64,000 bases of DNA, taken from the NCBI GenBank assembly GCA_964035545.1, contig OZ037765.1, positions 34,361,504-34,425,503 of the forward strand. Direction: 5' to 3'. The notes beneath the pieces were generated by a model. The model was not told the origin of the DNA. It ran no database searches and saw only the letters and a program-made list of their open reading frames with translations. Position 1 is the first letter of the stretch. The number at the start of each line of letters is the position of its first letter. The stretch comes from Bugula neritina. Its lineage: Eukaryota; Bryozoa; Gymnolaemata; Cheilostomatida; Bugulidae. Position numbers and translations under genes: made by a program. Below are positions 29,764 to 58,221 of this stretch, piece by piece.

Positions 29764-31925
29764 ATGGGTCAACGTAAATCTGTTCCTAAAGACGAATCAA
29801 GTTAGTAAATTATATAAATATAAATACTACCAGTAGCTGCAGAACTTTTACATTATACGTTTTTATGAGTTATATGACATTCAGTTGCAGCACTAGAGAA
29901 ATTGAAGTAGCATTAGTTTTATAATTCTCTTAAAAAAGTTTGCATTGGGGTGTGGTTAAAAATCTCATGAGAACATAACTCTATTTGTTACATTTCTGAT
30001 CTAGAAACACAAGCTTTGTTCAACTTTTTATTACTTTGCACCTAACTTTGTATTCACCACAACTGGGTGCATTATTGTATAATGTTATATACTGAAGCTT
30101 ATATTATAATAATATATTAAAGTATAATATATTGTTATACTGACATATATATTATATTATATCACAAATATGATGCTGACCTATACTATAAAGTGTTATT
30201 ATTATTTTATATTATATTGTAGCTATTATACTAACCTACATCATGTTATGTTACAATAATTATAGTAACCTTAGTTAACTATTATAACATGCACATTTTA
30301 CTGACCTATATTGCTTTATATTACATTATATTACATTATATTACATTAGAATACTATAACACATACTGTACAGAAGTATAAACAACATGGCTACCCTTTA
30401 CCTGTCATCTGCTATAGCTGACGTCTGCACCAGTTACAGGGATGAGTCATACTCTTAGGTATAAACTGACAAAGTGGGCACAACTTGAATATATATTCAG
30501 ATTTTATCACAGGATTTCAATTTAATTATCTGTAATTTTAAGTAGTTAAAATATAAAATGTTTATTGTGTAACTATTGCCAGTTATGGTTCTATGCATTG
30601 ATAGTGTTTACAAACATTCTATTATTATAAAAACTTTTATTTATAAAGTTGCACATATTTTATAGAGAAGTACGAGGTGTGGTTCAACACATCCAGTATA
30701 GATGGAGCTGATGATGAGTGGATGTGGAATAGTACTAGATCCTACACTATAGAAGAGATCAGAAATAAAAGTAGACATCATACAGTTACTCATGTTGAAC
30801 TGGTGTATGACATTCCTCCAAATATCAACAAACTGTTTCCTCATCTCACACATCTGAAGGTATCTGGAGTAGACAGTAATGCTAACTGGACCAGGTATTA
30901 TGTTGTTATAATTTATAACTATATTCATAAGTGAGATATTATCTTGTAGTAGAATGTGGAGTAATCTCCCCTCACAAAAACACTAGCTTTAGTAACAACT
31001 TTTGTATTATTTACCTTATTTATTGTATTTCTATTTATGTTTCAATTTAAAGTAAGTTGGTGTCATTCAAACATATCAATAAACATATAATGTATAATAG
31101 TATGTGATAATTATGTAGAATTGAATATACTGTTACACCTGTATATAATTATTATGTTACAGCATATCTTCACTGAAGAATCTTGAGGTATTGAATATAT
31201 CAGATAATAACCTATCTGAAGATCTACCTGACAATATATTCACATCCTTACTATCATTGAGAGAGTTGAACATGGAGAACTGTAAACTGTCAACTCTACC
31301 AAACAGGTGTGGATTATATTATACATTATGAAGTTATCTGCACTATCTTTATTGAGTCAACTAGACTCTGTGTATATGATACGTCACAAGTCAATTATTG
31401 TATTCTTTTCTATTAGATATGTACTCAGATAGAAATGGTATATCAACTTCTCACTTATTCCTCTAATAAATTATTTTGCTGTGTAACAGTTTATATTGGC
31501 ACCAGGTATAAAATTTGTTATAATATAGAATTATATCCATATAAGTTAGATACTCTCTTGTAGCTGAGTGTAATGTGAAGCTATTATACATTTCTCTTTA
31601 AAATAATCCGAGCCTAAGCAGCAACTGCTGTATTATTTATCTGACTTTTAGTGGTCAGATCAAGAGTTAAATAAAACTAAATTATTCTTATTCAATAATA
31701 TTATTTCTATATATAGTAGGTCAACTTACTACCTTTTCGTTATCTTACAGCATATCTTCACTGAAGAATCTTGAGGTATTGAATATATTTGATAATAAGC
31801 TATCTGAAGGTCTACCTGACAATATATTCACATCCTTACTATCATTGAGAGAGTTGTACATGAAGCACTGTAAACTGTCAACTCTACCAAACAGGTGTGT
31901 ATTTTATTGTAGTGTAGAATAATAT

Positions 31926-32008
<83 letters not shown>

Positions 32009-35000
32009 TTATATATTTTTATATTTTTATATTTATATATATACGTATACATATACGTATATATATAATATACATGCCAATTATCTACTGAATATTTTAA
32101 AAATAGCATAAATTACGTAGTATTACTATGCCTATTTGCATCCAATTTACTAGTTTTACATTTATGGCAACTGTAATGTATTTTGTTTAAAATGGTTATT
32201 GCAAGCATTATTCAATTATTCATATATTCACATTGTAATCACAGCGAAACTTGAACTTTATAGCTTTGTATTTAAGTGCATGAGTGAGTTTTAAATTTTC
32301 TTTTAGGTTTATATGCATAAAAAATGTGTTTAAAATATTTACCAATAAACAAAACTAAAAAGATTTACACATAAAAAAAATAATATAATAATAAAAGTGG
32401 CAAAATTTTCTCTTTATAACTTATAATGGCGCCCATATGATTCCCTAAGATTTCCTAATAGCGGCACTCTTAATGTATATACCACTCTGGACCTTAACTA
32501 TGCTGTGGATGTACAGTTCTAACTGATATAACTTATTACTGTGATGAAAGTCTATATTTCTTCTTCTGGTGGACAGAGTGACTTGTTTCTTGTTATTTAT
32601 AGTAGTCAAAGTTCCTTCTGTAACATGGCTACATAAGGGTGTGATCTCTAATACCCGCATAACAACATTCTTCAAGAAACGCAGACTATATATGAATATT
32701 GCAGTTTTCATGTTCCGTCACTATAAACATGTTAATAATCTCAGCACTACATGTATATATGCTAAAAGTTCCACCATGCTTTCATATAACATGTATATTA
32801 TGTTTCATACAGCATATCTTCACTGAAGAATCTTGAGGTATTGAATATATCAGGGAATAACCTCTCTGAAGGTCTACCTGACAATATATTCACATCCTTA
32901 CTATCATTGAGAAAGTTGGACATGGAGATCTGTCAACTGTCAACACTACCAAACAGGTGTGTATTATATTATATATTATGCAGTTATCTGCACTATCTTT
33001 ATTGAGTCAACTAGACTCTATGTATATTATACGTCACAAGTCAATTATTGCATTCTATTCTATTAGATGTACTCAGATAGAAATGGTATATCAACATCTC
33101 ACTTATTCCTCTAATAAATTATTTTGCTGTGTAACAGTTTATATTGGCACCAGGTATAAAATTTGTTATAGTATAAAATTATATCCATATAAGTTAGATA
33201 CTCTCTTGTAGCTGAGTGTAATGTGAAGCTATTATATATTTCTCTTTCTCTTTGAAATAACCCCAGACTTAGTAGCAACTGCTGTATTATTTATCTGACT
33301 TTTAGTGGTCAGATCAAGAGTTAAATAAAACTAAATTATTCTTATTCAATAATGATACTTTTATATAGTAGGTCAACTTACTACCTTTTCGTTATGTTAC
33401 AGCATATCTTCACTGAAGAATCTTGAGGTATTGAATATATCATGGAATAACCTATCTGAAGGTCTACCTGACAATATATTCACATCCTTACTATCATTGA
33501 GAGAGTTGGACATGGAGTGCTGTAAATTATCAACTCTACCAAACAGGTGTGTATTATATTATAGTGTAGAATTATACTGTAATATGTATAATATATAAAC
33601 ATATGATTAATATAATTGTGTAGAAACTTATGACATATTATTTTACCATAATCAGAGTGACTTATAATATTATAATTATGTCTATATTGAGATATAATAT
33701 AACGTTATACTAAGATATAATATAATATTATACTGAGATTAATTATAATGTTATTCTGAGATATATTATAATACTATACTGAGATATAATATAATGTTAT
33801 ACTGAGATATATTATAATGTTATATTAAGATATATTATAATGTTATACTGAGATATATTATAATATTATACTGAGATATATTATAATATTATACTGAGAT
33901 ATATTATAATGGTAGTCAATCCATAGTTACTGGGTGATGCATTGTATCATTTACTTTAATTTATCAAATACCTGGTAGTAGAACTCCTAACATAGCTATA
34001 AAATAAATATAATAGTAAACTACAATTATTCCTAACACCTATACATAAAGCTATAAATATAATTGCAGAATCCTATATACTATTTATTATAATGGTATAT
34101 ATTAGAAAGTATAATATGAAATTATATTATTTATTTTTGTACAAAACAGTATTTCTATTTCTTTCAGCATGCAGAGTCTACAGAAGTTAGAGCTACTGTA
34201 CATAGCAGGCAATAAGTTCACCAGTTTACCATCTCCTGCGTACACACTGAGTAGTTTGCAAAAACTGAATATATCTTCCAACTACTCCCTGACATCCTTA
34301 GATCCTGAGATACTACAGCTAACTCAACTTCGTACACTGTATGTTAGAAATTGTGATGCTCTCACCTCTCCTCCACTAGAAGTATGTGAGAGAGGAGTAG
34401 ATGCTGTGAGACAATACTACACAGACTTGGCTAAAGGAGCTGGTAGAAGTCTTCCATTCGCTACTATAGCTGTGCTGGGTAATACTATGGCTGGGAAGAC
34501 CAGTCTAATCAGAACATTACAGAATGCTGACAGAAAGAGAGTTCTGACTAACAGAAGGCCAGATGCTGTGAAAGATGAGACAACAAAGGTGTTTAATGTT
34601 GAAGAGGTGGGGGTGGATGGTACAGTACTTCGTGTCATTGATATGGGAGGCCAGGAGGTCTACCATATCACCTATCAACTGACACTGAGACAGAACTGTA
34701 TTCCAGTCATAGTAGTCAACATGGAACAGTACGAAGAGATCTTAAATGATTCAACACACAGAGAAGCTGTTAGAAGATTAGCTTTTGATTACATGTCTCA
34801 CCTCTATCTGGCTAACCCAATTCTGGGTGCTCCAAAACTTATCTTCACACATAAAGATAAGTTTCAAAATGCAGAATTTCAGGAGCTTCGAAAGAACTTT
34901 CTAGAAAGTTCGAATCAACTGTGTGAGGAAATGATTAGGGAAGAGAAAGCATTGGGTAGAGAATTTGCTCAAATCAAACATTTTAGTGAATCAGCTGGAA

Positions 35001-38000
35001 GAGTCTTTCCTGGTAAGGACATTTATGAGGTGGGGAAAGATGATAAGTATGAAGTGTTTGACCTGATCAAGGAGTCTCTTCTTCAAAGCAGTCACCATTT
35101 TGTGAAACCTTTACCTCTGGTCTGGGAGGAAGTAAATGAAAAAGTGCTGTCTATTCCCTCTGTGTACAGCACCTTTGATGAGATACTCAAATACGTGCAA
35201 ACCGAACTTCAACAAATTGAGTCAAGTCAGCTGGACATAATCCTCACTTACATGCATGACTGCGGCAAAGTATTGTGGTATAAAAATATCAGCTCTCTCC
35301 GGCCATACGTATTCCACAAGATTTCACAAGTCACCAAACTTCTCTGTGTCTTGTATCATCATGATGCTAACATCTGGCAGAGTAGAGTTAACAAGTTCCA
35401 GCCGTGCTATTCAAAGGATGGGATGCCTGTTGAGAAGCAGGACTTTGAGGAATCCGTTAATCATTTCACTGACACTGGTTTGATGATGCAATCTCTTCTT
35501 GTCTATTTGATTCAAAATGAAACAATATTCCACAGTTTTGAGAATGTTGAAGTTGCTATCTGCTTACTCCAGACGTTCCGTTTGCTGCACGGTCCAATAC
35601 ATAGCAAGTCTGAAGACCCATGGTTCATTGTACCTCAGTTTGCTAAGAACTACTACAGCACTTCTTACTCACCACCCAAAGACATGCTGCTTCATGTTGA
35701 GACACAATTCAATGGTCTAGCCCTGCCACACTATGTCTACCACCAAATGACAGTCGGCTTGTTGGAGTTGTTTCCCGGTGATTCTCCCAGGATAAAAGTG
35801 AGAAGAAATGGAGCCAATGTCTATCAAGATGGAATCTACACACAGCTGGTACACGACCATAAATCTAGAAAAATTTCACTCCACGTGTCATCTGATGCTG
35901 CAAACATCAGCAGAATGTGGGAGAGACTCATCACCACCAACAACAACATCCTTAGACATGTTCTACAAACTTGGAAAGCAACTAGACCAGTCACTACATG
36001 CTACTGTGCTCACTGTCTTCTGCTAGGACTTCCTTGTCCTAAGAAAGTGCAAAGACCTCAATGGTGTCTTCGTTCTTTACAACATTCCACACCGAGTTCC
36101 AGACTGTGTAGTGGAACTTCAACAACTCTGTGTGGTGATGAGGAGATCCCAAGTGCTCTGCTCTACCCATGTATGTTTATTTGTATTGTAGTGCAATGCC
36201 TGTAAAATTATATTTTACTGCAATTTACCAAATGTGTGCATTTATTTGAAAAGGAATTATTCATTGATATAACTGTAATGCGGTTTCACGACACCCGACT
36301 GTATAAATTTCTAAGCAATTCATTGTTTCAGGTGAACCACTGTCTGAACGAGAAGCTGATAAGTTGGAGAAGTTTGTGAATGAACTGAATGTTCGAAGAC
36401 CTCAAGAAAGATTAGCTAATTCTGGTGAATACATTATGACCAGTTTTTACAAGCTTGTGTTCTTTAAAAGTTTTACTTTATTTAAAAATCTTATCACAAG
36501 AAATTCCTGCATTGCATCTGAATACCAAACTGCTAGCCGTCATAGTATTATGTTTTTTACTTATTCCTTGTGTAGCTAAGTATTGTAGTGAGTAGTGCAA
36601 GTACAAATACAGGAATCGCCCTCTCCCTACTCTTGGAATACTTAGACTCTTATGTAGCAACCAATTAGCAGCTCCGGAAGATATGCTTCCGATTCACGTG
36701 ACACTTCCCGGGTTATTAACATTATATCACGTTGTTGTAAGCGGAGGCTTGTAGTAGTAACATGTGTTAGTAGTTGACTCTTGTATAGGATAATTTGATG
36801 TGATGTTTGGTTTATGCTTTATTGTGGATAATAAATATAATTACTCGACAGCTACCCTAGTAATTGATAACAGAATAACCAGCTAACTATACGCAAGTAA
36901 ATAACTCACGCTCAGTAATTGCACAAATTACTACAGTATTGTAGTCGGTTTATACTTTATAGCCGCCGAAAGTAGCCAATCAGATCTTTTGACCACCGCA
37001 ATAACAGCCAATGACAATCTCAGTGATCTTTCTGATGATGAGGAGAATCTGTACCCTGATGGAAAGGAAGTTGAAGAGATGAAGTTTATAAGACTCAGAC
37101 TGAATCCTACCAGTAACCTAACGATAAGACAGCTGTTCTCAAACACTGACAAGGTGATCGCTTCTTATATATGGCTATGTCCTTTATTTTTGCCAGTTGT
37201 TTAGTTCAGCAGTAACAAGTATTTCTCTGTTACATCCAGGTGTTTACTATGACTAGAAAAAGAGGAAGAGCTCTGATAATAAACAACAGGAGCTTTGATA
37301 AGAGACCAGATTTGTGTAGGAAAGGTTCAGATGTGGATGTTGAGAATATGTCTGCCATGTTGAAATCTCTCAAGTTTGATGTTGTGACACACACAGACCT
37401 GAAGGCTGAGGTATGTTTTGCTGCTGCTTTACTTATCAAGATAAAAATGGAACTTTTTGTTAGTTTAAAAAAAGCATCCATATACAGTATTTTACTGTCC
37501 CATACTTTCTAGGAAATGCTGTCCGCTGTTCAATCTGAGGTGGAAAAAGAAGAACACGAAGATCTGGGATGTCATGTGTTGGTTATCATGACTCATGGAG
37601 GACTAAACAACCACATCTATGGTACAGACCTGAAACGAGTGAAACTAACAGATGTGTATGATATTCTGACCCCTTTGAACTTCCCAGGAATGGCTGGCAA
37701 ACCAAAGGTTGTTATACTGGAAGTCTGCAGTGGAGGTAATCAGTTGATACAACATTTGTGGTTACTTCGGAGCTGTGTTCTTTTGACTGTTAGTAAATGA
37801 TTAAATGTGTCTATATTGCTGTTCATTTATGCTATTAACTAATCATGTGGGTATTTAAAGTTGCGTTTATACCTTCACGATTTTCGGTCAAAATTTCAAT
37901 TTGGCCGGGTTGAAATTTCTCCGAGTTGCATTGCATTGTAAAAGCCACCCGTTGAAATTTTTGTACTGCAATAACTTAATCGGCCAATTTTAGAATAGGA

Positions 38001-39730
38001 GTAATAACTCCTTGTAAACATTGTTATTTAGTTATTACTTTGGCGATTAGACAACGTACTTATACGGTTATAATTATATAGCCTACGCTTTCTCAATTAT
38101 CGCTTTTATGCTTTCCGCTTCACTAATTCACGACATTTACAAAGGGCATCAAATAGCTATTATGCGAGTCAAATTTCAATTTCAGAAAGTGAGCAACCAC
38201 ATCAATATGATTTCAACGAGTTTAAGTTTGACTATAAAGGGGTACCCGGAAAAGCGTTATTAACCTAAACTCGGTACTTTTTTCAGCAGAGGTATAAACG
38301 CAACTTTAGACTAAAGCTGATAACTGCTGAAGTAGAGTAGGGCCAAGCGTGGCGTGACGTGCTAGAAAACCCGTTTAGGCTAAGAATGGGTTTTCATGCG
38401 TCTAACATGCTGAGGGAGAAGTCCGGCAAGCTTGTGCATGTTTGATCTAATTGGCTTATTATAAATTAGCGAGAACTTTTCTTTTATTTTAATTCAAAGT
38501 TTAGCTTTTAGCGAACTGAATTGAAACAGTTTCCTATATATCTAAAGTCGATGACGTAGAACAAATGTCTGAAGGCGAGCAGTAAAGTTTAAAGCTAACA
38601 TCATTAGCAAATAAATTTCTGCACTCGAAACTCACGCATTATGGCCCTCCGCTAGAGTCTTCATAGCATTTATTTAATACAAATTATACATGAGTGAAAT
38701 AAAGTACATAAGTGTGAAGAATTACATAACATGACAAATACTAAGCATGCAAGCTAACTTTCTAAGTGCTAATACCCAACTGTGTTCTGCTGATGCACTC
38801 TGCTAATGATCCTGTACCATTAGTTCCATCCCAAAGCATTAGCTCCATCCCAAGCATTAGCTTCATCCCAAAGCATTAACCACAGCTTCTGATGCAGCAA
38901 TGTATTAGGTATTAGCTGAGTGTATCGTAGATGATGCAACATTAGAGTAGCAGAGTTAGGGTAGAAGTTGTCTTTTCACCACAATATACCCACTTTCAGA
39001 GTTTTCTACATGTTTTTCTATTTGACATTATTTTTACTCATCATATTAAATAAATATAATATTATGAGATCTGTATTACAGAGAGAAGTGATTATGGCCA
39101 AAAAGGTATAGACAGATTTGATATCGGAGAATCACAGAAGGAAGGGGAGAGTATCTCTCCTCCACTTGCTAAAGTTCCTGGAGACAAAGATGCTGAGGCT
39201 ATGAATAGACTGAACTATGATGACCTGCTAGTAGTGAAATCTAGCATGGAGTGTAAGTAACACACATGTAATAGAGTATTAGGTTACACAGATGCTATAC
39301 ATACACTGATGTTATTTATAATTGTAGAATAATTCACATTACTGACTCTACTTGTAGCATTCATAGCAAAGGTTCACCCTGTGTATGGATCACTAATGAT
39401 TAGAGCTCTTGTATCTTCCATGTATAAACATGCCTGTCACCATGACCTCTACACTATATTCAAACAGGTGAGTATATTGTTACTATGTTAGAGGTGTTTG
39501 GAGGCGTGTCATAAATAGGTTATTTAGAATCATCTGGTACATAATAGTCAGATTTCACTGTTGAGTTGCTAAACATTCTTCAGGTACAGACTAAAGTGAG
39601 AAAACTGTGCTTAGATAAAAATCTAGAGAGTGGAGGACAGTTGGTCGTAGTCTGGGATACTCTCACTCATATGAGAAAACTTTACCTGTTTCCTAGGTTT
39701 AATGGCCACAAAAGAGAAGATGACTCTTAG
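29764..39730 (+). CDS. Gene A: LRR-Roc-COR GTPase fused to a caspase
   Basis: Exons by phase-consistent GT-AG splicing: 29764-29800, 30666-30894, 31163-31306, 31751-31894, 32813-32956, 33403-33546, 34168-36170, 36332-36424, 36963-37153, 37240-37410, 37513-37735, 39082-39252, 39358-39467 and 39584-39730 (TAG), 1316 aa. It opens MGQRKS (fits the MGxxxS myristoylation motif). An unrecognised domain follows (13-89), then LRRs (89 to about 345). The Roc GTPase has a P-loop GNTMAGKT (385-392), DMGGQ (439-443) and THKD (508-511). COR follows, then a CxCxxC..C element (about 893-904), an acidic linker, caspase p20 (1043-1174; His1128 in MTHGG, Cys1172 in EVCSG instead of QACxG), a linker and p10 (1232-1316, ending RKLYLFPRF). 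No death-fold domain is seen. Known family roles are ROCO switch proteins and caspase proteases; I infer an intracellular sensor with a built-in caspase effector. The exon model is derived by eye. Confidence 0.85.
31163..33546 (+). other. Four-cassette LRR exon array of gene A
   Basis: Four exons (31163-31306, 31751-31894, 32813-32956, 33403-33546) are each exactly 144 nt, flanked by phase-2 introns, and encode 48 residues, i.e. two LRRs starting [10 protein letters not shown] and ending LSTLPNR. They can be added, lost or skipped without changing frame. Introns after cassettes 1 and 3 share about 230 bp of near-identical sequence (31328-31560 and 32988-33215), so duplication involved exon plus intron pairs. 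Amino acid differences concentrate at LRR positions 5, 7, 8 and 10. Confidence 0.9.
31927..32001. repeat. (TA)n microsatellite in an LRR intron of gene A
   Basis: About 37 TA units lie just after LRR cassette 2, followed by diverged TATATTTATA sequence to 32070. The rest of this intron (to 32812) has no recognisable content. Confidence 0.95.
33685..33911. repeat. ~23-bp minisatellite in the intron before the Roc exon, gene A
   Basis: About ten imperfect units of the type GAGATATATTATAATGTTAT plus ACT. The corresponding intron of gene B has a longer version (51955-52370), so the array changed length after the duplication. Confidence 0.9.
37858..38306. mobile_element. 449-bp MITE in the intron between p20 and linker exons of gene A
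   Basis: The termini AAGTTGCGTTTATACCT (37858-37874) and its complement (38290-38306) are perfect 17-bp inverted repeats flanked by TA on both sides (37856-37857, 38307-38308). No coding capacity is seen. The corresponding intron of gene B (56208-56471) is short and lacks it, so it inserted into gene A after duplication or was lost from B. A diverged relative lies at 8042-8445. A Tc1/mariner-like MITE fits best. Confidence 0.82.
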
Positions 39731-40398
39731 AGTAGATTATGGAGAGAATGACAATTTAGACATAATATATTCATATGTTCTGGTTATCTTAGCTCCATAG
39801 TTATGTATGTATACAAATATATTGTATGCAGTTCTTCTAGTTTAGATGTGTCATAGTAACACTACAGAGTAGTTTATTCATTACAATGTCATATGATAAA
39901 CAGGTATACAGTGTTATACTATTATTCTGTTTTACTTCTGTTTGCTAGTTTATATATTATAACCTGAGTGGTGTACGCTAGCAGTTCTCATGTTACTCTT
40001 ACAATAGACTAAGTTTTATCTTAACTAGCTGAACCGAGGACACCAGGCTATAGACTATTACACTGTTATTTGGTTTATTACAGCTTTTCTTAGTATCTGT
40101 CACTTTATAACCAGTTGACAACACACTGATTTAGAACAGTGTAATAATCATGACGATAGTTCACCTGCTTAAAATAAACGAAACCATATTTTCTTGGCTA
40201 ATTTATAGTTACACCAATTTTAGTATTATTTAGTTGACTAATGTTACATGAAAGACCATCGTTTAGCAGTTTAATCCTCTTATTTCTATTCAAGTTGCTT
40301 GTTTTTGAGGATCAGTCAAACTGGACTTGTACTTTATACCATTTATGCAGTTTTTATATCATAAGTGATTGTGTGATTTTATAAATATATTATAATAT
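39731..40398. other. Intergenic DNA after gene A
   Basis: Presumed 3'UTR and spacer. No coding, RNA or repeat signal beyond AT richness; it partly aligns with the spacer after gene B. Confidence 0.4.
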
Positions 40399-41078
40399 TA
40401 CTCTGTACACTATACTATATCTATTTTATACTCTATACAATATCTACTCTATACACTATACTATATCTACTCTATACACTATACTATATCTACTCTATAC
40501 ACTATACAATATCTACTCTATACACTATACTATATCTACTCTGTACACTATACTATATCTACTCTATAATACACTATACTATATCTACTCTATACACTAT
40601 ACTATATCTACTCTAAAATACACTATACTATATCTACTCTATACGCTATACTATATCTACTCTATACCCTATACTATATCTACTCTATAATACACTATAC
40701 TATATCTACTCTATACACTATACTATATCTACTCTAAAATACACTATACTATATCTACTCTATACGCTATACTATATCTACTCTATACCCTATACTATAT
40801 CTACTCTATAATACACTATACTATATCTACTCTATACACTATACTATATCTACTCTAAAATACACTATACTATATCTACTCTATACGCTATACTATATCT
40901 ACTCTATACCCTATACTATATCTACTCTATACACTATACTATATCTACTCTATACACTATACTATAACTACTCTATACACTATACTATATCTACTCTATA
41001 CCCTATACTATATCTACTCTATACCCTATACTATATCTACCCTATATACTATACTGTATTAACTCTATACTATATATC
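40399..41078. repeat. ~23-bp minisatellite between gene A and the NOL11 pseudogene
   Basis: About 28 units of the CTACTCTATACACTATACTA plus TAT type, including a higher-order repeat of roughly 125-130 bp with CTCTAAAATA and CTCTATACGC variants (visible around 40610-40930). A much shorter array occupies the equivalent place after gene B (57891-58047). Confidence 0.92.
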
Positions 41079-41082
41079 GAGG

Positions 41083-41398
41083 GCTACTGAAAGGGAATAT
41101 TTCATGGCGAGGGCCACATTGTAAAATTTAACTTGGGCTGGAGGCCACAGCATCTGCAATTCAAAATAACTTTATTACAAATGCCTGTGAGTCATTACAC
41201 AATGAAGTCCCAATAATTAGGTACTGCAAGCTTCATGTTTTTAGCATATATAAAAATGGGGCATTTAAAAGGCTGTTGTCCACTCGAATTCATATACCTG
41301 TGCAAATAGTTTTATCTGTTATGCCTTTGAAGGCCACATAAATGTAGGAGGGGGGAGGCACATCCAGGCCACCTGTTGGACAGCCCTGCTTTAGGCAA
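41083..41398. mobile_element. Probable hAT-type transposon remnant
   Basis: The right end, read on the minus strand, begins CAGGGCTGTCCAACAGGTGG, a terminus style common in hAT elements. The left end begins GAGGGCTACTGAAAGG. GGCCACA phrases recur inside. There is no transposase. A shortened form remains in the second duplicate (58048-58215). The left end may have been eroded by the adjoining minisatellite. Confidence 0.45.
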
Positions 41399-41829
41399 CG
41401 AGCAATAAATATTTTAGGAGTTGTATTCCTTTAGAGTGAAAATTTCCTTTGCTTCGGATATGGTTTTCAACAAAAAATTAAAACATTTGAAAATATATAT
41501 AAAAATACGCTCTTATAAAAAACTTTTATAAATAAATTCGATTGTAAAAACTGAATTTGTTAATAATTGTAGTACGCGAACGACAGGATAAAACCATTAC
41601 ATGTGCAGTTCCGGCGTAAAAAGTCATGGCTACTACCAGTGAATCAACCGCAACTGCAATAAATGATACTTGGGCCATTGCTTCCTTTTCAAAGGCGAAT
41701 GAATTTTTGGGATTCTCTTCATTTGACACTAGCAATGTTATTTTGACAAATAGGCAGTCTATGTCAATATATAAGGTAACATATTTCATTTTCTGTAATG
41801 CTGATTTGAGGATTTTTTTATAAATATAA

Positions 41830-42820
41830 TAAAATTAATATTGTACTAGTAGTAGTACAGTACTACTAGACACTAGTATGATTATAACTACAACCAGGAG
41901 TACTTTTAGTAGTATTAGTACTACTACTAGTACTAGTAGTACTAACAGTACTACTACTAGTACTAGTACTAAGCGCTAAAACAGTAACCAGTGCCCGGTC
42001 CAGAGGCAGCAGACGTTGTAGTACTACTACTACTAGTACTAGTGGTAGACTGGTAGGACCTGTACGTTGACACTGCAGTAAAAGTCATACTTATAACGTA
42101 GTTACACTTTGACTTTCGATTTTTTGCTTTTATTTCTAGTGTTCGTAGTACTAGTAAAACTTCTACTAAATCTAGTTTATTTCTAACAGTAACTGGTGTG
42201 AGTATATCTAAACTAAGATTAGTAAAAACACAAATTTAGTTAGTTACTGTAACACTAACTATTATTTAGAGTCTACTTCATGACTTGTATTTGTACGAAT
42301 AGTGATAATCACAGTATGAATAACTCAATAACTAATAACTTTAAGCGAAGCTAAGTTAAAGTGTTTTAGTAAAATTAAATAACAACTTACTCTTACTGAC
42401 TAAACACTCGGTCAAAGTCATTCACGGTCGCTAAAAGTGAATAGTGGTATAATAGTAAAGTCAATTCAGCGTAAGGCTAATGCAGCTCTTAGTGACTTAT
42501 TAATTATTATGAAAATCGATGTAAACACGCAATAATTTTTTCAACTTGAATTTGAATTGACTAATTCGTAATAACTATAAGTATTGGATTAAATCAGTTG
42601 ATACTCGCGTTTTAATTAAGCCTTTCGGTGAATGGCACTGAGTCCTAACACATATTTAAAGTAAATTTCAGTGATAACTATTGAGTATTGAAATGTGATG
42701 ACACACATTTACTAACTTAGCCTTTAATTACTTTAAAATTTATTTCATTCATACTCAGTCGTGAGTAATTAGCATAAATCAACCACTGTAGTTCAATTCT
42801 AAATCATACTCAATCACGAT
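41830..42820. repeat. ACTAGT-rich low-complexity intron 1 of the NOL11 duplicate
   Basis: Intron 1 begins with CTAGTAGTAGTACAGTACTA-type palindromic triplet sequence (41840-42060), then degenerate ACTAACT/AGTTA words. It aligns with 59430-60500 of the second copy and resembles 10900-15700. Confidence 0.7.
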
Positions 42821-43691
42821 AGCCTTTATGTTTTTGCTAAACTAAATCTAAATGGCCTTAAAATTTATACCATGATGAGTTGTTTGTATCGCTTTTAAAA
42901 TGATCTTAGAATTTTGTTATTGAGTTGAGGAAATAAATTTAGTTATTTCAGAGTTTCACCGGCCTGAATGAGTATTCTCTGCAGTAGAGCCTCTTTCTCA
43001 TATAAATCACTGTGGAATAAATTATTACTGAAAGTAATGACTCTACATGTGTTTTTATGCTTCATTCATGTGAGTAGTTTTCAGTTTAGAATATTAATAA
43101 ATACTAGAGTTTGAGTTGTGATAAACTTAGGTGAGTGATCAGCAGACAGTATCAAGTTGTACTCTCAAATCAGAGAGCAGTTTCTGTCTGCCTGTGGTTT
43201 ATGATCACGGAGAAGAACATTATGTTGGTTTGGTTGAGAATCTTGGAAAGAAGAGACTTTGTGTCTGGACAAATGAACTTTCTAACTACAAGGACTGGAA
43301 GAAGAAACTGGTAAATTTCTCACTTTGAATATTTCAGTTGTTTTGTGATTTATAAGATAATATGTTTACAATAACACAATTTGTTGGTCATTTGGTGGAG
43401 TATATTTATAGAATAGATGAAGAATGATAACCTAATGATGGTTGGTTCATAATACAAGTGTAACTGTTGTAGTTATCAACTGAGGTGACTGAACTGGTAG
43501 AAGTAGAGAAGACAGAACCACTGGTGGTCACATCTAATAACTGTGTGTGCTGGTTGTCTCATGTGGAGGACACTTCACTGTCTCTCCATCTGCTGCCTCC
43601 AGATCTGAGAGATGCTGACGTGGAGATTAGTGAGTTTAAAAGTTACAGATGGAGTAATAGAACTGAGATTGTCTACATTGTGACTGTTGAT

Positions 43692-43880
43692 GTGAGTATC
43701 ACAATGTGTCAGTAAGGTGTCACAATGTGTCAGTATGGTGTCACAATGTGTCAGTATGATGTCACAATGTGTCAGTATGGTGTCACAATGTGTTAGTATG
43801 GTCTCACAATGTGTCAGTATGGTGTCACAATGCGTCAGTAAGGTGTCATGGTGTGTCTGTAAGATGTCACACTTAACCAG
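43692..43880. repeat. 21-bp minisatellite starting at the exon 3 donor (pseudogene copy)
   Basis: Units of the type TCACAATGTGTCAGTATGGTG begin two bases after the GTGAGT donor. They are read-through compatible because the unit is a multiple of three. The right edge coincides with the deletion of exon 4. Confidence 0.9.
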
Positions 43881-44494
43881 TAGAGTGTCAATATATACTG
43901 TGTCTCTGTATGACGTCACCTTTACAATAACCAGTTTATCTGAAATACTCTATACAGGTGGTAAGGATGAGATACTATACTCTACCGGTACATCTGAAGA
44001 AGTTATTTCCTCTCTCAACTCACAGTTTTCTACTCAGTGTGTCTCTCTTCACCTACTAGACTCTGACCAGCTTCTCATTGCAACATCTCACAGCTCTACG
44101 AATACAGGCTAGTATAGTTTACCTTTTCTGAAGATGATTGTTCTAGTAAAGTAGTTCTACTGTAACTGTATGCCTCCTTTACTTGAATATGAGTAGATGT
44201 AAGCCAATCAGTGTAGCTGCTCTCATAGCACCTGTTTAGAGGTGTCACAGCTCAAGTATGGTGACATGTGCTGGTCTTGTAGGTGTTTTACTTATATTCA
44301 GTATCATGTTCAGAACTACGAGGGTTCTAAAGAGTCTGGACAGTGAGCTCTACGGTGATAAACCTGTGACTCTTCTACCTCCATACATACTGACCCACAC
44401 GGAGAGCTCATTGCAGGCTCACTCATATAAGTACAGCAAGTTGACACTAAGGAGCATGATGGGCAGTTTGAGACTGTCTGCTGATTCTGAGTTC

Positions 44495-44789
44495 GTGAGT
44501 TACCAGGTTATTCAGTGAGTCACCAGGTTATTCAGTGAGTTACCAGGTTACTCAGTGAGTTACCAGGTTATTCAGTGAGTCACCAGGTCATTCAGTGAGT
44601 TACCAGGTTATTCAGTGAGTTACCAGGTTATTCAGTGAGTTACCAGGTTATTCAGTGAGTTACCAGGTTATTCAGTGAGTTACCAGGTTACTCAGTGAGT
44701 TAGCAGGTTATTATTCAGTGAGTTACCAGGTTATTCAGTGAGTTACCAGGTTATTCAGTGAGTTACCAGGTTATTCAGTGAGTTACCAG
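44495..44789. repeat. 20-bp minisatellite of donor-like units (pseudogene copy)
   Basis: About 14 units of GTGAGTTACCAGGTTATTCA begin exactly at the exon 6 splice donor. Every unit therefore carries a GTGAGT donor-like and a TTACCAG acceptor-like word. Confidence 0.92.
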
Positions 44790-45324: not shown

Positions 45325-45535
45325 CTGTTTAATACACCAACACTAACAACAGGCATTACATGTATTTAGTTATTTGTATTATGTAATTAGTGAGTGACAG
45401 TGACATTACAACTATCCAACTGTTTAGTACACCAACACTAACAACAGGCATTACATGTATAATTTAGTTATTTGTATTATGTAATTAGTGAGTGACAGTG
45501 ACATTGCAATTATTCAACAGTTTAGTACACTTGCA
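45325..45535 (+). repeat. ~96-bp tandem duplication
   Basis: Two copies beginning GTTTA(A/G)TACACCAACAC, plus the start of a third at about 45520. Confidence 0.85.
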
Positions 45536-48478: not shown

Positions 48479-51400
48479 ATGGGTCAACGTAAATCTCTAC
48501 TTCGACCCAGACCTCCACCTCAAACTCCACCTAGACCTCCACCTACACCTCCAGCTCCACTTCCATTTCGACCTCCACTTAGTAAATCTCTACCTCAAGC
48601 TACGCCTCCACTTTCTGGTCAGTCTGTGTCAAGTTAGTAAATTATATAAATACAAGTACTTCAACTGCTAACTACAGAAATTTCATACTTTTTTTTATGT
48701 GTTATGACATTAAGGTGCAGTAGTGGAGAAGTTGAGGTAGCCTAAGTTCTTTATTGTTCTTAATAAATTATACGTTGAGGTGCAGGTTTATATTCTCACC
48801 AGAACATAACTTGTCTCTTACATTTCTTCACTACAGTTTCATTACTTTGCACCTAGCTCTGTGTTGACCATATCTGAGTATTATATTGCTTTTGTTTATT
48901 ATGTGATGTTATATACCTGCTTATATTATATACTATAACTATTATACTATAACAGTATAACTATTATACTATAACTATTATACTATAACTATTATACTAT
49001 AACTATTATATTATAACTATTATACTATAACTATTATACTATAACTATTATACTGACTTATATCATATTATATTATATTACATTATATTATATTATATTA
49101 TATTATATTTTATTATATTATATTATATTATATTATAGTGGTGGTCACCTTTCACTGCCGTGTGGCCGGATCAAATCATATTATATTATAGTATAGTATG
49201 TTGTTTTATTATACTGACTTATATTATATTATATAACAAATATTATGCTGACCTATACTATAAAGTGTTATTATTATTTTATGTTATATTGTAGCTATTA
49301 TACTAACCTACATCATGTTATGTTACAATAATTATAGTAACCTTAGTTAACTGTTATATAACATGCACATTTTACTTACCTATATTACATTATATTACAT
49401 TATATTAAATTATTATATATTATTATACTATAAAATATACTGTACAGAGGTATAAACAACATGGCTACCCTTTCAACTGTCAGAATATATCACAGGATGC
49501 ATTTTGAAGTTATAAAATATCCAAGTTTACTTCAATACTGTTTATAGTGTTGAGACACTCTGTTATTTGATATCAAAGTTATTATTTATAAAATGGTGAA
49601 TATTTTGTAGAGAAGTACAAGGTGTGGTTCAACACATCCAGTATAGATGGAGCTGGTTATGGGTGGATGAAGAATGATACTACATCCTACACTATAGAAG
49701 ATATCAATGATATAAGTAGACATCATACAGTGACTCATGTTATACTGGAGAATGACATTCCTCCAAATATCAACAAACTGTTTCCTCATCTCACACATCT
49801 GAGGGTATATGGAGTATACAGCAATGCTGACTGGACCAGGTATTATGTTGTTATAATTTATAACTATATTCATAAGTGAGATATTATCTTGTAGTAGAAT
49901 GTGGAGTAATCTCCCTTCACAATAACACTAGCTTTAGTAACAACTTTTGTATTATTTACCTTATTTATTGTATTTCTATTTATGTTTCAATTTAAAGCAA
50001 GCCAATATGTGATGATTATATATAAGTAAATACTGTCATACCTGTATGTTATGTTACAGCTTATCTTCACTGAAGAATCTTGAGGTGTTGGATATATCAG
50101 AGAATAACCTATCTGAAGGTCTACCTGACAATATATTCATATCCTTACTATCATTGAGAAAGTTGAACATGAAGAGCTGTGAACTGTCAACTCTACCAAA
50201 CAGGTGTGTATTATATTATAGTGTAGAATGATACCAGAATAAATACAATATATAAATATATTATTGAATAATTGTGTAGAAGCTTCTAATATTTTGTGAT
50301 GTACAAAAATTGACTTGTATCAACTAATTACATTATATAAATCATTATACATAATATATGTGATGTCATGTCTTTACTATTCTATTCTATCAGATGTACT
50401 CAGTAAGACATGGTGTGACAACTTGGAACTTTTTACTCTGATAAATATTGGTATATAAAGTTGCTATAATATTATGAAATGCTCATAAGTGACCTCTTAT
50501 GATATTGTTGAGTAGAATGTACAGTATATAGTTCAATTACCTTTCATAATTTTCTACCTGTATGTTATGTTACAGCATATCTTCACTGAAGAATCTTGAG
50601 GTATTGGATATATCAGGGAATTACCTATCTGAAGGTTTACCTGACAATATATTCACATCCTTACTATCATTGAGAGAGTTGAACATGAGTTGGTGTAGAC
50701 TGTCAACTCTACCAAACAGGTGTGTATTATATTATGGTGTAAAAAGATACCAGAATAAATACAATATATAAATATAATATTGAATAATTGTGTAGAAGCT
50801 TCTAATCATTTGTGATGTACATAAATTGACTTGTATCAACTAATTACATTATATAAATCATTATACATAATATATGTGATGTCATGTCTTTACTATTCTA
50901 TTCTATCAGATGTAAGACATGGTGTGACAACTTGGAACTTTATACTCTGATAAATATTGGTATATAAAGTTGCTATAATATTATGAAATGCTCATAAGTG
51001 ACCTCTTATGATATTGTTGAGTAGAATGTACAGTATATATAGTTCAATTACCTTTCATGATTTTCTACCTGTATGTTATGGTACAGCATATCTTCACTGA
51101 AGAACCTTGAGGTATTGAATATATCAGGGAATAACCTATCTGAAGGTCTACCTGACAATATATTCACATCCTTACTATCATTGAGAGAGTTGTACATGAG
51201 TTGGTGTGAACTGTCAACTCTACCAAACAGGTGTGTATTATATCATACATTATGAAGTTATCTGCACTATCTTTATTGAGTCAACTAGACTCTGTGTATA
51301 TTATACATCACAAGTCAATTATTGTATTCTATTCTATTAGATGTACTCAGATAGAAATGGTGTAATAACTTCTCACTTACTCCTCTAATAAATTATTTTG

Positions 51401-54400
51401 CTGTGTAGCAGTTTATATTGGCACCAGGTATAAAATTTGTTATAGTATAAAATTATATCCATATAAGTTAGATCCTCTCTTGTAGCTGAGTGTAATGTGA
51501 AGCTGTTATACATTTCTCTTTCTCTTTGAAATAACCCGAGCCTAGTAGCAACTGCTGTATTATTTATCTGGCTCTTAGTGGTCAGATCAAGAGTTAAATA
51601 AAACTAAATTATTCTTATTCAATAATAATACTTTTATATAGTAAGTCAACTTACTACCTTTTCGTTATGTTACAGCATATCTTCACTGAAGAATCTTGAG
51701 GTATTGAATATATCATGGAATAACCTATCTGAAGGTCTACCTGACAATATATTCACATCCTTACTATCATTGAGAGAGTTGAGCATGGGTTACTGTAAAC
51801 TGTCAACTCTACCAAACAGGTGTGTATTATATTATAGTGTAAAATGATACTGTAAAAAACATAATATATATAAACACAAGGTGAATATATTTGTGTAGAA
51901 ACTTATGACGTAATATTTTACCATAATTAGAGTGACTTATAATATTATAATTATGTCTATTATGAGATATATTACAGTATTATACTGAGATATATTATAA
52001 TGTTATACTGAGATATATTATAATGTTGTACTGCGATATATTATAATGTTATACTGAGATATATTATAATGTTATACTGGGATATATTATAGTATTATAC
52101 TGAGATATACTATAGTATTATACTGAGATATAATATAATATTATACTGAGATATATTATAATGTTATACTGAGGTATATTATAATGTTATACTGAGATAT
52201 ATTATAATACTATACTGAGATATATTATAATGTTATACTGAGATGTATTATAATGTTATACTGAGGTATATTATAATGTTATACTGAGATATATTATAAT
52301 GTTATACTGAGATGTATTATAATGTTATACTGAGGTATATTATAATGTTATACTGAGATATATCATAATGGCAGTCAGTTACTGTGTGATGCATTGTATC
52401 ATTTACCTGCTCCAACTTGCATCAAATACCTGGGAGTATAACTCCTAACAGCTATAAAATCTATACAAAAAGCTATAAATATTATAGCAGAATCCTAAAT
52501 ATTCATTATAATGGTAATCGAGAGCATTTTATATATTCATTATAATGGTATATATTAGAGAGTATATTATAGAATTATATTATTTATTCTCATACCAAAA
52601 CAGTATTTGTATTTCTCTCAGCATACAGAGTCTACAGAGGTTAGAGAAACTGGACATATCATCAAATAAGTTCACCAGTTTACCATCTCCTGTGTACACA
52701 CTGAGTAGTCTGCAGAAGCTGGATATATCATCCAACTACTCCCTGACATCCTTAGATCCTGAGATACTACAGCTAACTCAACTTCGTACACTGGATGTTA
52801 GATATTGTAAAGCTCTCACCTCTCCTCCACAAGAAATATGTAAGAGAGGAGTAGATGCTGTGAGACAATACTACACAGATTTGGCTAAAGGTGCTGGTAG
52901 AAGTCTACCATTTGCTACTATAGCTGTGCTGGGTAATACTATGGCTGGGAAGACCAGTCTAATCAGAACATTACAGAATGCTGACAGAAAGAGAGTTCTG
53001 ACCAACAGAGGGCCAGATGCTGTGAGAGATGAGACAACAAAGGTGTTTAATGTTGAAGAAGTGGAGGTGGATGGTACAGTTCTCCGTGTCATAGATATGG
53101 GAGGCCAGGAGGTCTACCATATTACCTATCAACTGACACTGAGACAGAATTGCATTCCAGTCATAGTAGTCAACATGGAGCAGTATGAGGAGATTTCAAG
53201 TGAATCAACACACAGAGAAGCTTTTAGAAGATTAGCCTTTAATTACATGTCTCACCTCTATCTGGCTAACCCAACTCTGGGTGCTCCAAAACTTATCTTC
53301 ACACATAAAGATAAGTTTCAAAGTACAGAATTTCAGAAGCTTCAAAAGATTTTCCTTGAGACATCCGATCAACTGTGTGAGGAGATGATTAAAGAAGAGA
53401 AAGCATTGGGTGGAGAATTTGCTCAAATCAAACATTTCAGTGAATCAACTGAAGGAGTCTTTCTTGATGAGGACATTTATGAGGTGGGGAAAGATGATAA
53501 GTATGAAGTGTTTGACCTGATCAAGTTGTCTCTTCTTCAAAGCAGTCACCATTTTGTGAAACCTTTACCTTTGGTTTGGGAGGAAGTAAATGAAAAAGTG
53601 CTGTCTATCCCCTCTGTGTACAGCACCTTTGATGAGATACTGAAATACGTGCAAACCGAACTTCGACAAATTGAGTCAAGTCAGCTGGATATAATCCTCA
53701 CATACATGCATGACTGCGGCAAAGTCTTGTGGTATAAAAATATCAGCTCTCTCCGGCCATACATATTCCACAAAATTTCACAAGTCACCAAACTTCTCTG
53801 TGTCTTGTATCATCATGATGCTAACATATGGCAGAGTAGAGTTGACAAGTTCCAGCCATATTTTTCAGAGGATGGGATGCCTGTTGAAAAAGAAGACTTT
53901 GAAAGATTTGTTAATCATTTCACTGAGACTGGTTTGATGGTGCAATGCCTTCTCACTCATCTGGTTAAACAAGAAACACCATTTACTAGTCTGGAAGATG
54001 TAAAAGTTGCTGTTTGCTTGCTCCTCACATTCCGTTTGTTATATGGTCCTTTACCTGGTGATTTCAAGGAGCCCTGTTTTATTGTTCCTCAGTTTGCCAA
54101 CGACCTCTTTGATGCCACTTACTTTTCGCCAAAAAATATGCTTCTTCGAGTTGAAACCCAATTCAATGGCTTAGCGCTACCGCAATATGTCTACCAGCAG
54201 ATGAATGTTGGTTTGCTAGAGTTGTTTTCCGACGAATTTGCTGTGATTAAAGTGAAGAAAAATGGCGCCAATGTCTATCAAGATGGAATCTACACACAGT
54301 TGGTACACGACTACAAATCTAGAAAAGTGTCACTCCACGTGTCATCTAATGCTGCCAACATCAGCAGAATGTGGGAGAGACTCATCACCACCAACAACAA

Positions 54401-57189
54401 TATCCTTAGACATGTTCTACAAACTTGGACAGCGAGTAGACCAGTCACTACATGCTACTGTGCTCACTGTCTTCTGCTAGGACTGCCTTGTCCTAACAAA
54501 GTGCTCAATCCTCCGTGGTGTCTTCGCTCCTTGAAACATTCTACACCAACAAGTCCCAGACTGTGCAGCGGATCTTCAACAACCCTGTGTGGTGATGAGG
54601 AGATACCCAGTGCTCTTCTCTATCCATGTACGTGTAATTTTATTTCAAAAAATAGTTGATTTCTCTGTTGTTTATTTATCAACTTCTATTATTGGAATAA
54701 TTTTTCTGGTAACTGACAGTTTTTCATTCTCCAGGCAGTCCTCTCTCTCCAGAAGAAGCTGATAACATAAAAGAATGTGTCAACAAACTGAGATCTGCAA
54801 GAGAAGAGACTGCTTCAACTGTTTCTGGTATGATCGGTTTTCTATCATAAACTGTTACTGTTAGAAGTAACATTCTTTGCCTGAGCTCAGTCATATGTAA
54901 ACAGCAAAGGACAAGAACTCATGACCCTTAGTTATATAGGCTCTCTGCAAAAGCTCACACACCTTCAATTGTTTTAATTTATTTGTATAATTATTGACAG
55001 AAAAACACTCAAGTATTGATTCTGTTCATTTTTTATAGTCTTTTTGATACTTAGTTTCTGTTACTTAGCACTGAATATATCACCTTTTGTTTTCTTTTAG
55101 AGATAGGTGGAGAAAAGAATTTGTTAACTCAAACTACCTCAGTCCTTGTTGAAAACGACAACATCAGTGAATGCTCTGATATAGAAGAAGAAGGATATGC
55201 TGATTTCACTAAAGATGACCTTGAACCTTTTATATCTCAGGTTGAGGGTATGCAGCTGAAACCTACCAACAATGAACCAGTGAAACAGCTGTTTGACAAC
55301 CACAAACAGGTAAAACAAGTTTTTCGATTTCTTTTTAGATCATTGATTAATATTTTTTTGATATTATGGCTCTTCATCTAATTTCTATTACATTTCATAC
55401 TTGATTTGATTAATCCATTTTCTGTTGTCTACTTTTAGTAATATAAAATTGATTGGTTTGCAGGTTTATAAGATGAGTGACCCTGTTAGAGGTCGTGTCA
55501 TGATCATAAACATTGAGAGATTCTTTAGAGATGATGGCAGTGAACTGACTGAGGCAACCCGAGATGGTTCATACATCGACTATGTTAACATCAAAACTCT
55601 GTTGAAAGACATGGGATTTGTTGTAGCCAATGAAGATGATCCTCTGTTTGACCTGAGTAAACAGGTTACTGTATCATTTTCTTATCTTTTCCTGTAGTTT
55701 ATCCTCCCCAGGCTGTAGCTAGCGGTGATATATAGCAAGTATTTTTACTGCAGAACGGAGGCATTGCATTCCAACAAATCTACAATAATATGTTGTTAAC
55801 TTGTATTCAGGTTGTTTGTTTTTCTCAGTTCTGAGTTTTAGTTTAGAAACAGCAGCACTACTTAATAGTTTATCTTTGTGATAAATATTTCAATATAACT
55901 TTGAAGCAGCTTTGGCTTTGGCGTAGACACATTTACTTATTCAAACTTGTTTTTACACACCATTATATACTTTTATTTTACCAGGAGCTATTATCAGAAG
56001 TGAGGAAGGAGACCACCCACAGAGACCACAAAAATCTTGGCATGTTCATTCTAGTCATCATGTCACATGGAACTTCTGGAAACATCTTCTATGACAAATA
56101 CTGTAAATCTGTCAACTTGTCAGAAGTCAAAGATTTACTCTCAGCTAGTAACTTTCCTGCTATGAGAGGAAAACCCAAACTCATCATCTTCCATGCCTGT
56201 TCTGGCAGTGAGTAATGCAGAGTTGTTCCTCATTTTACTAGAACTAGCAGTTATATTACATAATTCCCTATAACTATAACATCAATTTAAGGAATCATTA
56301 TTTTCAAGATACCTGATGTTATTGGAGTATGCCTATGTGGAAGTGAGCTACACCTCATAACTGGAATCCAATAAACAGTGCTGTGTAATAGAGTTCTGCT
56401 TGTGAATCCAGTCCTAACTTATTACTCACCATCATACCACAGAGTCTACATCTTATGTATTTTATATACAGGCAGAGCTGACTTTGGTAATGCTGCACAG
56501 ACACAAAGCCCAGACACCGTCTCACCACCAACACCAACCCCTCTAACCTCATCTTCTGCAACAGCTGGGAGTGAGTCTTCTGCAGGTCAACATGTGTCTC
56601 CAAATATTCACTTTGATAGATTCACTCACCTAGATGCTGATGACTTCTACATTGTGAAGCCAAGTACAGAAAGTTAGTGAGAAGAAAATTATATTTGAGT
56701 CGACTGAAACTTTTATTTGTGCAAATTAAGATATTTGTTGCATGTAAATAAAATTGTTGCAAATTTTAAATATAAAATAATTTACATCATAATCTGAGAT
56801 TCATATTTAACTACTCAATTTCATGTGTTGCAGCTTACAAGGCTGGTAGGAATGAGAATTATGGTACCTGGTTTATCAGAATACTGGTGGCTACATTCTA
56901 CAGACACAGCTGTCACAGAGATGTTAGTGAGCTGTTTAGGATAGTAAGTACTTCAGTATTACTCTTTGTATGATACTGTGGAGCGTATTGAGTCATCAGC
57001 TTTATATTTCGCTTATATTTATACTTACAGATACAAGACAGAGTTAGACGAGTCAGTATTGCATATTGTAAGAAGACAGGAGATGAAGCAGCTGGTGGTA
57101 ATGTACCTAATTGTCAGGAATGTACTTTCACTCACCTCAGAAAACTTTTCTTTTTTCCAAAGTTTCATGGCAGACAACTCCCACAGTGA
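48479..57189 (+). CDS. Gene B: LRR-Roc-COR GTPase fused to a caspase
   Basis: Phase-consistent exons: 48479-48632, 49611-49839, 50060-50203, 50576-50719, 51087-51230, 51676-51819, 52622-54627, 54735-54827, 55101-55309, 55464-55664, 55985-56207, 56472-56672, 56834-56943 and 57031-57189 (TGA), 1386 aa. The first exon keeps MGQRKS but is expanded to 51 codons of Pro-rich sequence (PxxP motifs). Exon 2 encodes the same unrecognised domain as gene A. LRRs run from about 128. Roc: P-loop 424-431, DMGGQ 478-482, THKD 547-550. Then come COR, a Cys cluster, an acidic linker and caspase p20 (1089-1230; His1184 in MSHGT, Cys1228 in HACSG, close to QACxG). A Ser/Thr/Pro-rich linker precedes p10 with YGTWF and a CTFTHLRKLFFFPKF end. 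His-to-Cys spacing is 44 residues, near that of animal caspases. All junction phases match gene A. Protease activity is inferred, not shown. Confidence 0.88.
48910..49430. repeat. TATTA and ACTATTATACTATA repeats in intron 1 of gene B
   Basis: Tandem TAACTATTATACTA units (48950-49060) are followed by TATTA runs. The same GC-richer island (GGTCACCTTTCACTGCCGTG) as at 2985 sits at about 49142, showing common descent with the orphan first-exon region. Confidence 0.85.
50060..51819 (+). other. Four-cassette LRR exon array of gene B
   Basis: Exons 50060-50203, 50576-50719, 51087-51230 and 51676-51819 are again 144 nt, phase 2 to phase 2, 48 residues and two LRRs each. The first starts [10 protein letters not shown], the others [10 protein letters not shown]. 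The intron after cassette 3 is nearly the same as those after cassettes 1 and 3 of gene A, and introns after cassettes 1 and 2 are near-copies of each other. Substitutions again fall mostly at exposed beta-strand positions. Confidence 0.9.
51955..52370. repeat. ~23-bp minisatellite before the Roc exon, gene B
   Basis: About eighteen units of GAGATATATTATAATGTTAT plus ACT, roughly twice the array in gene A's homologous intron. Confidence 0.9.
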
Positions 57190-58215: not shown

Positions 58216-58221
58216 GTTTTA

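Follow-up and report, generated by a model that had tools for sequence, protein, structure and literature searches.

Tandem genes of the bryozoan Bugula neritina predict a large family in which an LRR sensor, a Roc-COR switch, and a caspase share one chain

We analyzed a stretch of 64,000 nucleotides (nt) from the bryozoan Bugula neritina (assembly GCA_964035545.1, contig OZ037765.1, positions 34,361,504 to 34,425,503 of the forward strand), which we call the window. An earlier note, made from the sequence alone, had described in it two tandem genes of identical phase structure, each encoding leucine-rich repeats (LRRs), a Roc GTPase domain, a COR domain, and a complete caspase. The coordinates given for both genes (Table 1) proved exact, and the phases agreed throughout. 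All 13 introns of each model are GT-AG, and the end phases common to the two genes run 1,2,2,2,2,2,1,1,0,0,1,1,0. Both begin with MGQRKS; next come an exon of 229 nt, four LRR exons of 144 nt each, and an exon 7 of about 2 kb, which completes the LRRs and encodes Roc and COR. The linker takes up the following two exons, and caspase p20 and p10 occupy the final five. We propose, with a probability of roughly 0.7, that the two genes come from a bryozoan family with many members, predicted to encode intracellular receptor-proteases with an LRR sensor, a Roc-COR switch, and a built-in caspase effector.

Splice sites were chosen by hand, with the paralogue as a guide. The least certain are the gene 1 acceptors of exon 9 (36963) and exon 12; for exon 9, the alternatives 36945, 36984, and 37008 are also in frame. 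The domains are unaffected by these choices. Chance or a pseudogene was ruled out by the intact frames together with the constraint reported below.

All of the motifs named for these genes, namely the P-loop, the HG and C-S-G motifs of p20, and the p10 RKL(Y/F)xFPxF strand, were present. Pfam Roc scored 28.6 and 31.3 bits in the window genes (cutoff, 27), and the P-loop reads GNTMAGKT in 21 of 22 Bugula loci and GNSMAGKT in the other. The earlier claim of a COR domain held by profile and structure but not by the Pfam cutoff, which neither window gene reached (16.7 and 14.8 versus 35.3), although a relative, P0033, did (38.1). When hhalign was run with an alignment of 8 other Roco proteins, every one of which served once as the lead, COR had a probability of 89.7 to 96.6%, compared to 0.3% for the controls (n = 2). 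An AlphaFold model of gene 2 positions 52518-54656 (predicted local distance difference test score, 85.3) matched LRRK1, LRRK2, C. tepidum Roco, and a Roco COR domain by itself (3dpt; Foldseek E value, 4.8e-11). By profile and model, the predicted Roc domain followed directly by COR was thereby confirmed in the window genes.

For the caspase, both p20 exons of gene 1 exceeded the Peptidase_C14 cutoff of 21.4 (39.9 and 43.1), as did one p20 exon of gene 2 (40.8), the other scoring 17.9. The p10 and linker exons, each scanned alone, matched no Pfam family. Once spliced, the caspase regions matched CED-3 across p20 and p10 (2e-18 for gene 2 and 7e-21 for gene 1), and gene 1 p20 matched ancestral caspase-3/6/7 at 8e-24. 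A predicted caspase fold with p20 and p10 is therefore confirmed at the sequence level in both genes, each of which has the catalytic His and Cys. No Pfam match to CARD, DED, or DD was found in the scanned exons of the window genes, and none reached the cutoff in 10 proteins of the bryozoan Watersipora subatra, one of which (P0074) has a 17-residue Death_EDAR match below the cutoff within its LRRs (17.4 versus 27). No NACHT or NB-ARC match was listed for the window exons or the Watersipora proteins; the switch is Roc-COR.

Table 1. Genes, exons, and divergent cassettes in the window (positions are those of the window)
Feature	Position	Strand	Remarks
Gene 1, whole	29764-39730	+	14 exons, 1316 aa, no internal stop
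Gene 1 exon 1	29764..29800	+	myristoylation-like start; motif without tool score
Gene 1 exon 2	30666..30894	+	N-terminal, precedes LRRs; without Pfam match
Gene 1 exons 3-6	31163-31306, 31751-31894, 32813-32956, 33403-33546	+	LRR, 144 nt each, phase 2-2
Gene 1 exon 7	34168..36170	+	last LRRs, Roc GTPase, COR; Pfam, paralogue and Watersipora homology, hhalign
Gene 1 exons 8-9	36332-36424, 36963-37153	+	linker with acidic stretch
Gene 1 exons 10-11	37240-37410, 37513-37735	+	caspase p20; His and Cys present, E-V-C-S-G
Gene 1 exons 12-14	39082-39252, 39358-39467, 39584-39730	+	p20-p10 linker and p10; S1 Arg position is Val
Divergent caspase cassette, gene 1 side	36188..41388	.	both flanks match; no match of at least 80 nt at the tandem offset within
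Gene 2, whole	48479-57189	+	14 exons, 1386 aa, no internal stop
Gene 2 exon 1	48479..48632	+	MGQRKS and proline-rich stretch
Gene 2 exon 2	49611..49839	+	without Pfam match
Gene 2 exons 3-6	50060-50203, 50576-50719, 51087-51230, 51676-51819	+	LRR, 144 nt each
Gene 2 exon 7	52622..54627	+	last LRRs, Roc, COR; Pfam, AlphaFold model
Gene 2 exons 8-9	54735-54827, 55101-55309	+	linker
Gene 2 exons 10-11	55464-55664, 55985-56207	+	caspase p20; His and Cys present, H-A-C-S-G
Gene 2 exons 12-14	56472-56672, 56834-56943, 57031-57189	+	p20-p10 linker and p10; S1 Arg kept
Divergent caspase cassette, gene 2 side	54645..58989	.	
Third exon 1 copy	2653..2688	+	other exons of the family not found elsewhere in the window

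The same fusion was found in W. subatra. P0040, annotated as a single protein, aligns end to end with the window genes at 36% and 34% identity, and Roc and COR, assigned by BLAST to gene 2, precede the caspase in 10 of 10 long caspase proteins from this species. Nine of these, P0040 included, were all the matches to the P0040 caspase region (all W. subatra, 934 to 1835 aa); the tenth, P0067, came from a separate search, and P0040 itself was first found through its Roc-COR region. Since the proteins were mostly picked by caspase and length, the informative part is the accompanying Roc-COR. P0067 has the second half of Roc only, and the caspase matches of P0071 and P0072 cover 176 and 152 residues of the query. 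Among the nine caspase proteins that include the P-loop part, only P0071 passed the Pfam Roc cutoff (27.3), Roc in the others being below it or unlisted. The structure model of one predicted chain, P0073, matched both Roco proteins and caspases; in its VIA-align comparison, all 50 rows were caspases, that one domain having filled them. These results bear out the single-chain architecture proposed from the window, as well as the caspase fold of its C-terminal domain.

In the Bugula genome, we searched 215,847,546 bp in 295 contigs (the accessible text of PMC11480708 gives 216,009,554 bp in 320 scaffolds for the published assembly); the window lies on C1 (35,640,107 bp), which is chromosome 1. 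Base composition and the size of the caspase family had at first suggested a sponge, but COX1 of the 15,248-bp mitochondrial contig translates sensibly under genetic code 5, which speaks against that origin. A P-loop pattern drawn from 22 loci occurred in 82 copies at up to 2 mismatches, with none for the reversed control. For at least 66 of the 82 copies, the scan lists PF00656 on the same strand no more than 10 kb downstream (for at least 62, within 6 kb); among the matches listed, the control placements gave 1 upstream on the same strand and 0 and 0 on the opposite strand. These counts are lower bounds, the scan having scored 150 of 295 candidates and listed 150 of 176 matches. With the p20 exons that tblastn found at three further loci (L022, L026, and L033), at least 69 of the 82 copies have a caspase. 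At 20 loci examined, with 18 further ones left out of the sample, the linker exon (20/20), p20 (19/20), and both p10 pieces (14/20) followed in order. Taken together, the sequences and models support a fused LRR-Roc-COR-caspase architecture in one predicted chain.

Beyond this family, 55 of the 121 loci merged from the 150 listed caspase matches have no P-loop partner (mainly on contigs C1, C2, C4, and C6-C9). Two of them, on C7 (5086841 and 7659735), have Roc-family matches upstream, which implies that the P-loop pattern misses a divergent branch. The best-scoring Peptidase_C14 match listed, L001 (C4:4999494-5003312), is a single open frame that reads FDASFG at the expected catalytic QACRG and may be a pseudo-caspase.

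A search of metazoan proteomes for this architecture had been suggested. Among named proteins, our searches found chains with both Roc-COR and caspase in Watersipora and in no other species; they required shared 5-residue words and a length window, and the Roc-COR search scored the 7997 candidates sharing most words, while two others had 7342 and 3579 candidates; for nonbryozoans this negative is limited and does not imply absence, because the caspase query retrieved no ordinary caspase either. The earlier note knew of no described family of this kind, and we found none among the best-ranked matches in open-access titles and the starts of abstracts. The Watersipora models carry automatically assigned names in NCBI. 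Their sequences are thus public, but to judge from our literature searches nobody has remarked on them, and the fusion would be a new form of Roco protein.

The sensor and effector halves of the genes were discordant. Between gene 1 and gene 2, synonymous divergence (dS) was lowest in the LRR exons (0.07), rose through Roc (0.19) and COR (0.53) to 2.3 in the linker, and was saturated in the caspase. At the tandem offset, DNA matches of at least 80 nt extend over 29467-36187, interrupted in introns, and over 41389-44789, and no such match was found from just past exon 7 to beyond the gene end. When any offset was allowed, matches between the genes covered 1% of the 3' half. A 23-bp minisatellite lies at 40395-41070, near the 3' edge of the gene 1 cassette, and the same unit recurs at 57881-58045. 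The caspase tree (23 rows, without L001; midpoint root for drawing only) shows two old classes, A with gene 1 and 16 further loci and B with gene 2, L023, L030, and L032; P0040 and P0067 are long branches in it, and the tool warned that the placement of P0040 may be false. In the Roc-COR tree, gene 1 instead shares a clade with gene 2, L032, L023, and L025, and L030 is distant. Exon 7 of gene 2 shares 92.3% identity with that of L025, and these two loci have no 3' match. With L030, gene 2 shares 73.0% identity in exon 7, compared to 88.7% in the matching 3' pieces (18% of the stretch), and the dS of this pair is 3.05 in Roc-COR versus 0.34 in p20. Exchange of caspase cassettes between paralogues would explain this discordance, as would gene conversion of the sensor halves; the data fit both.

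The catalytic residues vary as well. Among 21 loci with the second p20 exon, the His is present in 20, the Cys in 16, and both in 15. We take the S1 pocket positions for a P1 Asp to be an Arg in p20, a Gln two before the Cys, and an Arg in p10. These read Arg, Glu, and Val in gene 1 and Arg, His, and Arg in gene 2; the earlier description of a complete caspase is right for the fold, but the S1 pocket has substitutions at two positions in gene 1 and at one in gene 2. The residue two before the Cys is Glu in 16 of 17 class A rows and His in all 4 of class B. The p10 Arg is kept in 14 of 18 p10s; gene 1 has Val there, and L015, L017, and L018 have Ile. In the Watersipora proteins, HG is found in 10/10, Gln two before the Cys (QACSG) in 8/10, and the p10 Arg in all 7 of the 10 where the motif was found; the p20 Arg was recognized by eye in just two of them, P0040 and P0067. 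From its residues, gene 2 is the better candidate for ordinary caspase activity, and gene 1 may be retuned or weak.

Several observations weigh against our reading. No caspase partner is listed for 16 of the 82 P-loop copies, and L020 has no p20 within the 9 kb examined, with a listed caspase match 8.9 kb away. In both window genes, translation beyond the exon 7 donor would meet a stop after about 30 nt, and retention of intron 7 would therefore yield an LRR-Roc-COR protein. By our own reading, Watersipora P0038 (891 aa) stops just before the caspase, and a caspase-less product may thus exist. The catalytic Cys is replaced by Ser in 5 of the 21 loci (L019, L021, L022, L028, and L029) and the His is lost in L024, which implies that not all copies are proteases. 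Gene 1 itself combines Glu two before the Cys with Val in place of the S1 Arg. The 3' half of gene 2 also matches 15% of class A L017 (97.5%) and L027 (96.3%), which is unexplained. The early stop in intron 7 and the end of P0038 would fit two adjacent units, an MFHAS1-like LRR-Roc-COR gene and then a separate caspase gene, wrongly joined in our models. We regard this as very improbable, because the intron phases fit in both window genes, annotated Watersipora models join both parts, the linker exon lies between them at every one of the 20 loci, and the caspase match follows in at least 66 of 82 copies.

The Ser and His replacements bear on a different alternative, in which active caspases are regulated in hetero-oligomers by dead or retuned partners, by analogy with c-FLIP, which regulates caspase-8. 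Three of the Ser copies are still constrained (ratio of nonsynonymous to synonymous divergence [w], 0.25 to 0.49, a weak estimate from few pairs), and gene 1, without the p10 S1 Arg, lies beside gene 2, which keeps it. Most loci (15/21) retain both His and Cys, however, and the conservation of HG and QACSG in Watersipora suggests that activity is likely ancestral; we consider such a mixed family a possibility worth keeping, if not the expected one. In metacaspases and the paracaspase MALT1, the residue two before the catalytic Cys is Asp, and the Glu of class A, with the Val or Ile at the S1 position of four p10s, could likewise mark proteases whose P1 preference has moved away from Asp. This seems unlikely to us given that the p20 S1 Arg is kept and that most class A p10s seen keep their Arg. 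As for the mosaic of genes 1 and 2, assembly error or collapsed haplotypes might be suspected in a tandem, repeat-rich region with minisatellites at the edge. Similar discordance at L025, L030, L023, and L032, and an assembly built from HiFi and Hi-C data with a quality value of 53.7 according to the accessible text of PMC11480708, make this hardly credible.

Our reading of an LRR sensor is consistent with the pattern of substitution. In the LRR exons, pN/pS (nonsynonymous to synonymous differences per site) was 2.06 at 12 exposed positions and 0.41 at 35 others, in a set of 15 distinct exons (8 in the window and 7 in L034). The exposed positions, which we presume from the LxxLxLxxNxL pattern, were fixed after the 8 window exons had been seen; L034 alone (n = 7), checked afterwards, gave 2.00 and 0.50, with variation at 9 of the 12 exposed positions and at 13 of the 35 others. 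The LRR surface positions thus look diversified, but in view of conversion between paralogues and the small number of exons, we take this as an indication rather than proof. The start of the LRR exon occurs in 150 copies in the genome (control, 0). Roc-COR and p20 are constrained, with w of 0.06 to 0.29 in 10 pairs and 0.06 to 0.61 in 16 pairs, respectively, the pairs not being independent. Architecture, family size, discordant halves, and constraint are all read directly from the DNA.

The start of exon 1 recurs in 21 genome copies at up to 3 mismatches (reversed control, 0), and Watersipora P0072 begins MGCSLSRR. The MGQ(R/S)xS starts are probably myristoylated, a lipid anchor that would place the protein at membranes. 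Upstream of the two genes, 2043-4289 is a 5' remnant of a third family copy, whose flank and exon 1 match genes 1 and 2; beyond this exon 1, no family exon was found in the window outside the two genes. Sequence at 41389-44789 and 58990-62843 was duplicated along with the receptor genes (main matches, 87 to 97% identical) and contains short open frames and 20- to 21-bp tandem repeats; none of five frames scanned there was above the Pfam cutoff. On the minus strand at 16319-18698, open frames look retroelement-like by eye, and 0 of 3 scanned reached the Pfam cutoff. Elsewhere in the assembly, L013 (C17:10713-15005), on a contig of 17 kb, is a COX1-family gene that looks bacterial to us and may come from a symbiont.

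Roco proteins form dimers under nucleotide control, and caspases such as caspase-8 and -9 are activated by proximity. The mechanism put forward in the earlier note, LRR recognition, GTP-dependent dimerization, and adaptor-free firing of the caspase, is plausible for these predicted proteins. Ligand binding by the LRRs would change the nucleotide state or assembly of Roc-COR, which would draw the attached caspases together and activate them by proximity; the active caspase would then start cell death or inflammatory cleavage. Recognition would be turned into proteolysis in one chain, with no adaptor. We infer the single mRNA, the myristoylation, the GTP dependence, the activation, and the immune role. 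Over evolution, tandem duplication would make copies whose sensor positions diversify, the 144-nt phase-2 LRR exons being duplicable, while whole caspase cassettes would be swapped behind the shared phase-1 intron after exon 7 or sensor halves homogenized by conversion.

MFHAS1 (MASL1) and other LRR-Roc-COR Roco proteins share the domain order, as the match to the C. tepidum LRR-Roc-COR structure illustrates, and several Watersipora members carry the NCBI name MFHAS1 homolog. To our knowledge, MFHAS1-type proteins have no C-terminal enzyme or further domain, whereas in the bryozoan genes a caspase follows COR. LRRK1, LRRK2, and DAPK1 also join a Roco switch to an enzyme in one chain, and the model matches LRRK1 and LRRK2; their enzyme is a kinase, while the bryozoan one is a cysteine protease. 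CED-3 and caspase-3/6/7/8/9 resemble the bryozoan caspase in p20/p10 sequence and fold. Their prodomain is a CARD or DED or is lacking, and adaptors recruit them, whereas the bryozoan recruiter would sit in the same chain. In NLR inflammasomes and Apaf-1, a sensor and a nucleotide switch lead to a caspase, and the bryozoan layout is alike by analogy, but with a Roco-type GTPase instead of a NACHT or NB-ARC ATPase and with no separate caspase. The accessible text on brown algal LRR-ROCO candidate immune receptors reports 72-bp phase-2 LRR exons under diversifying selection (PMC11378527). The bryozoan exons are also phase 2, of 144 bp (2 x 72), with similar LRR duplication and diversification; the word caspase is absent from that accessible text. 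Aplysia TIR-ROCO, as described in the accessible part of PMC9334734, is likewise a lophotrochozoan ROCO fused to an immune-type domain, in that case TIR and not a caspase.

A broader interpretation, to which we give somewhat less than even odds, is that bryozoans have a modular repertoire of single-chain sensor-switch-protease receptors, at least 69 in number. Their LRR exons would diversify, and whole caspase cassettes of two deep classes, with active, retuned, and dead members, would be reassorted onto the sensors by recombination behind one fixed intron, as a combinatorial one-protein inflammasome. The Roco switch is of the type mutated in LRRK2 Parkinson's disease. If the proposed receptor-proteases are real, a Roco GTPase switch would be tied directly to caspase activation in one chain, and they would offer a clean readout of how the Roc-COR state controls an attached enzyme. 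They would also add many receptor-like genes to a phylum about whose immune system little has been learned, and the discordance between their sensor and effector halves is visible in the genome sequence itself.

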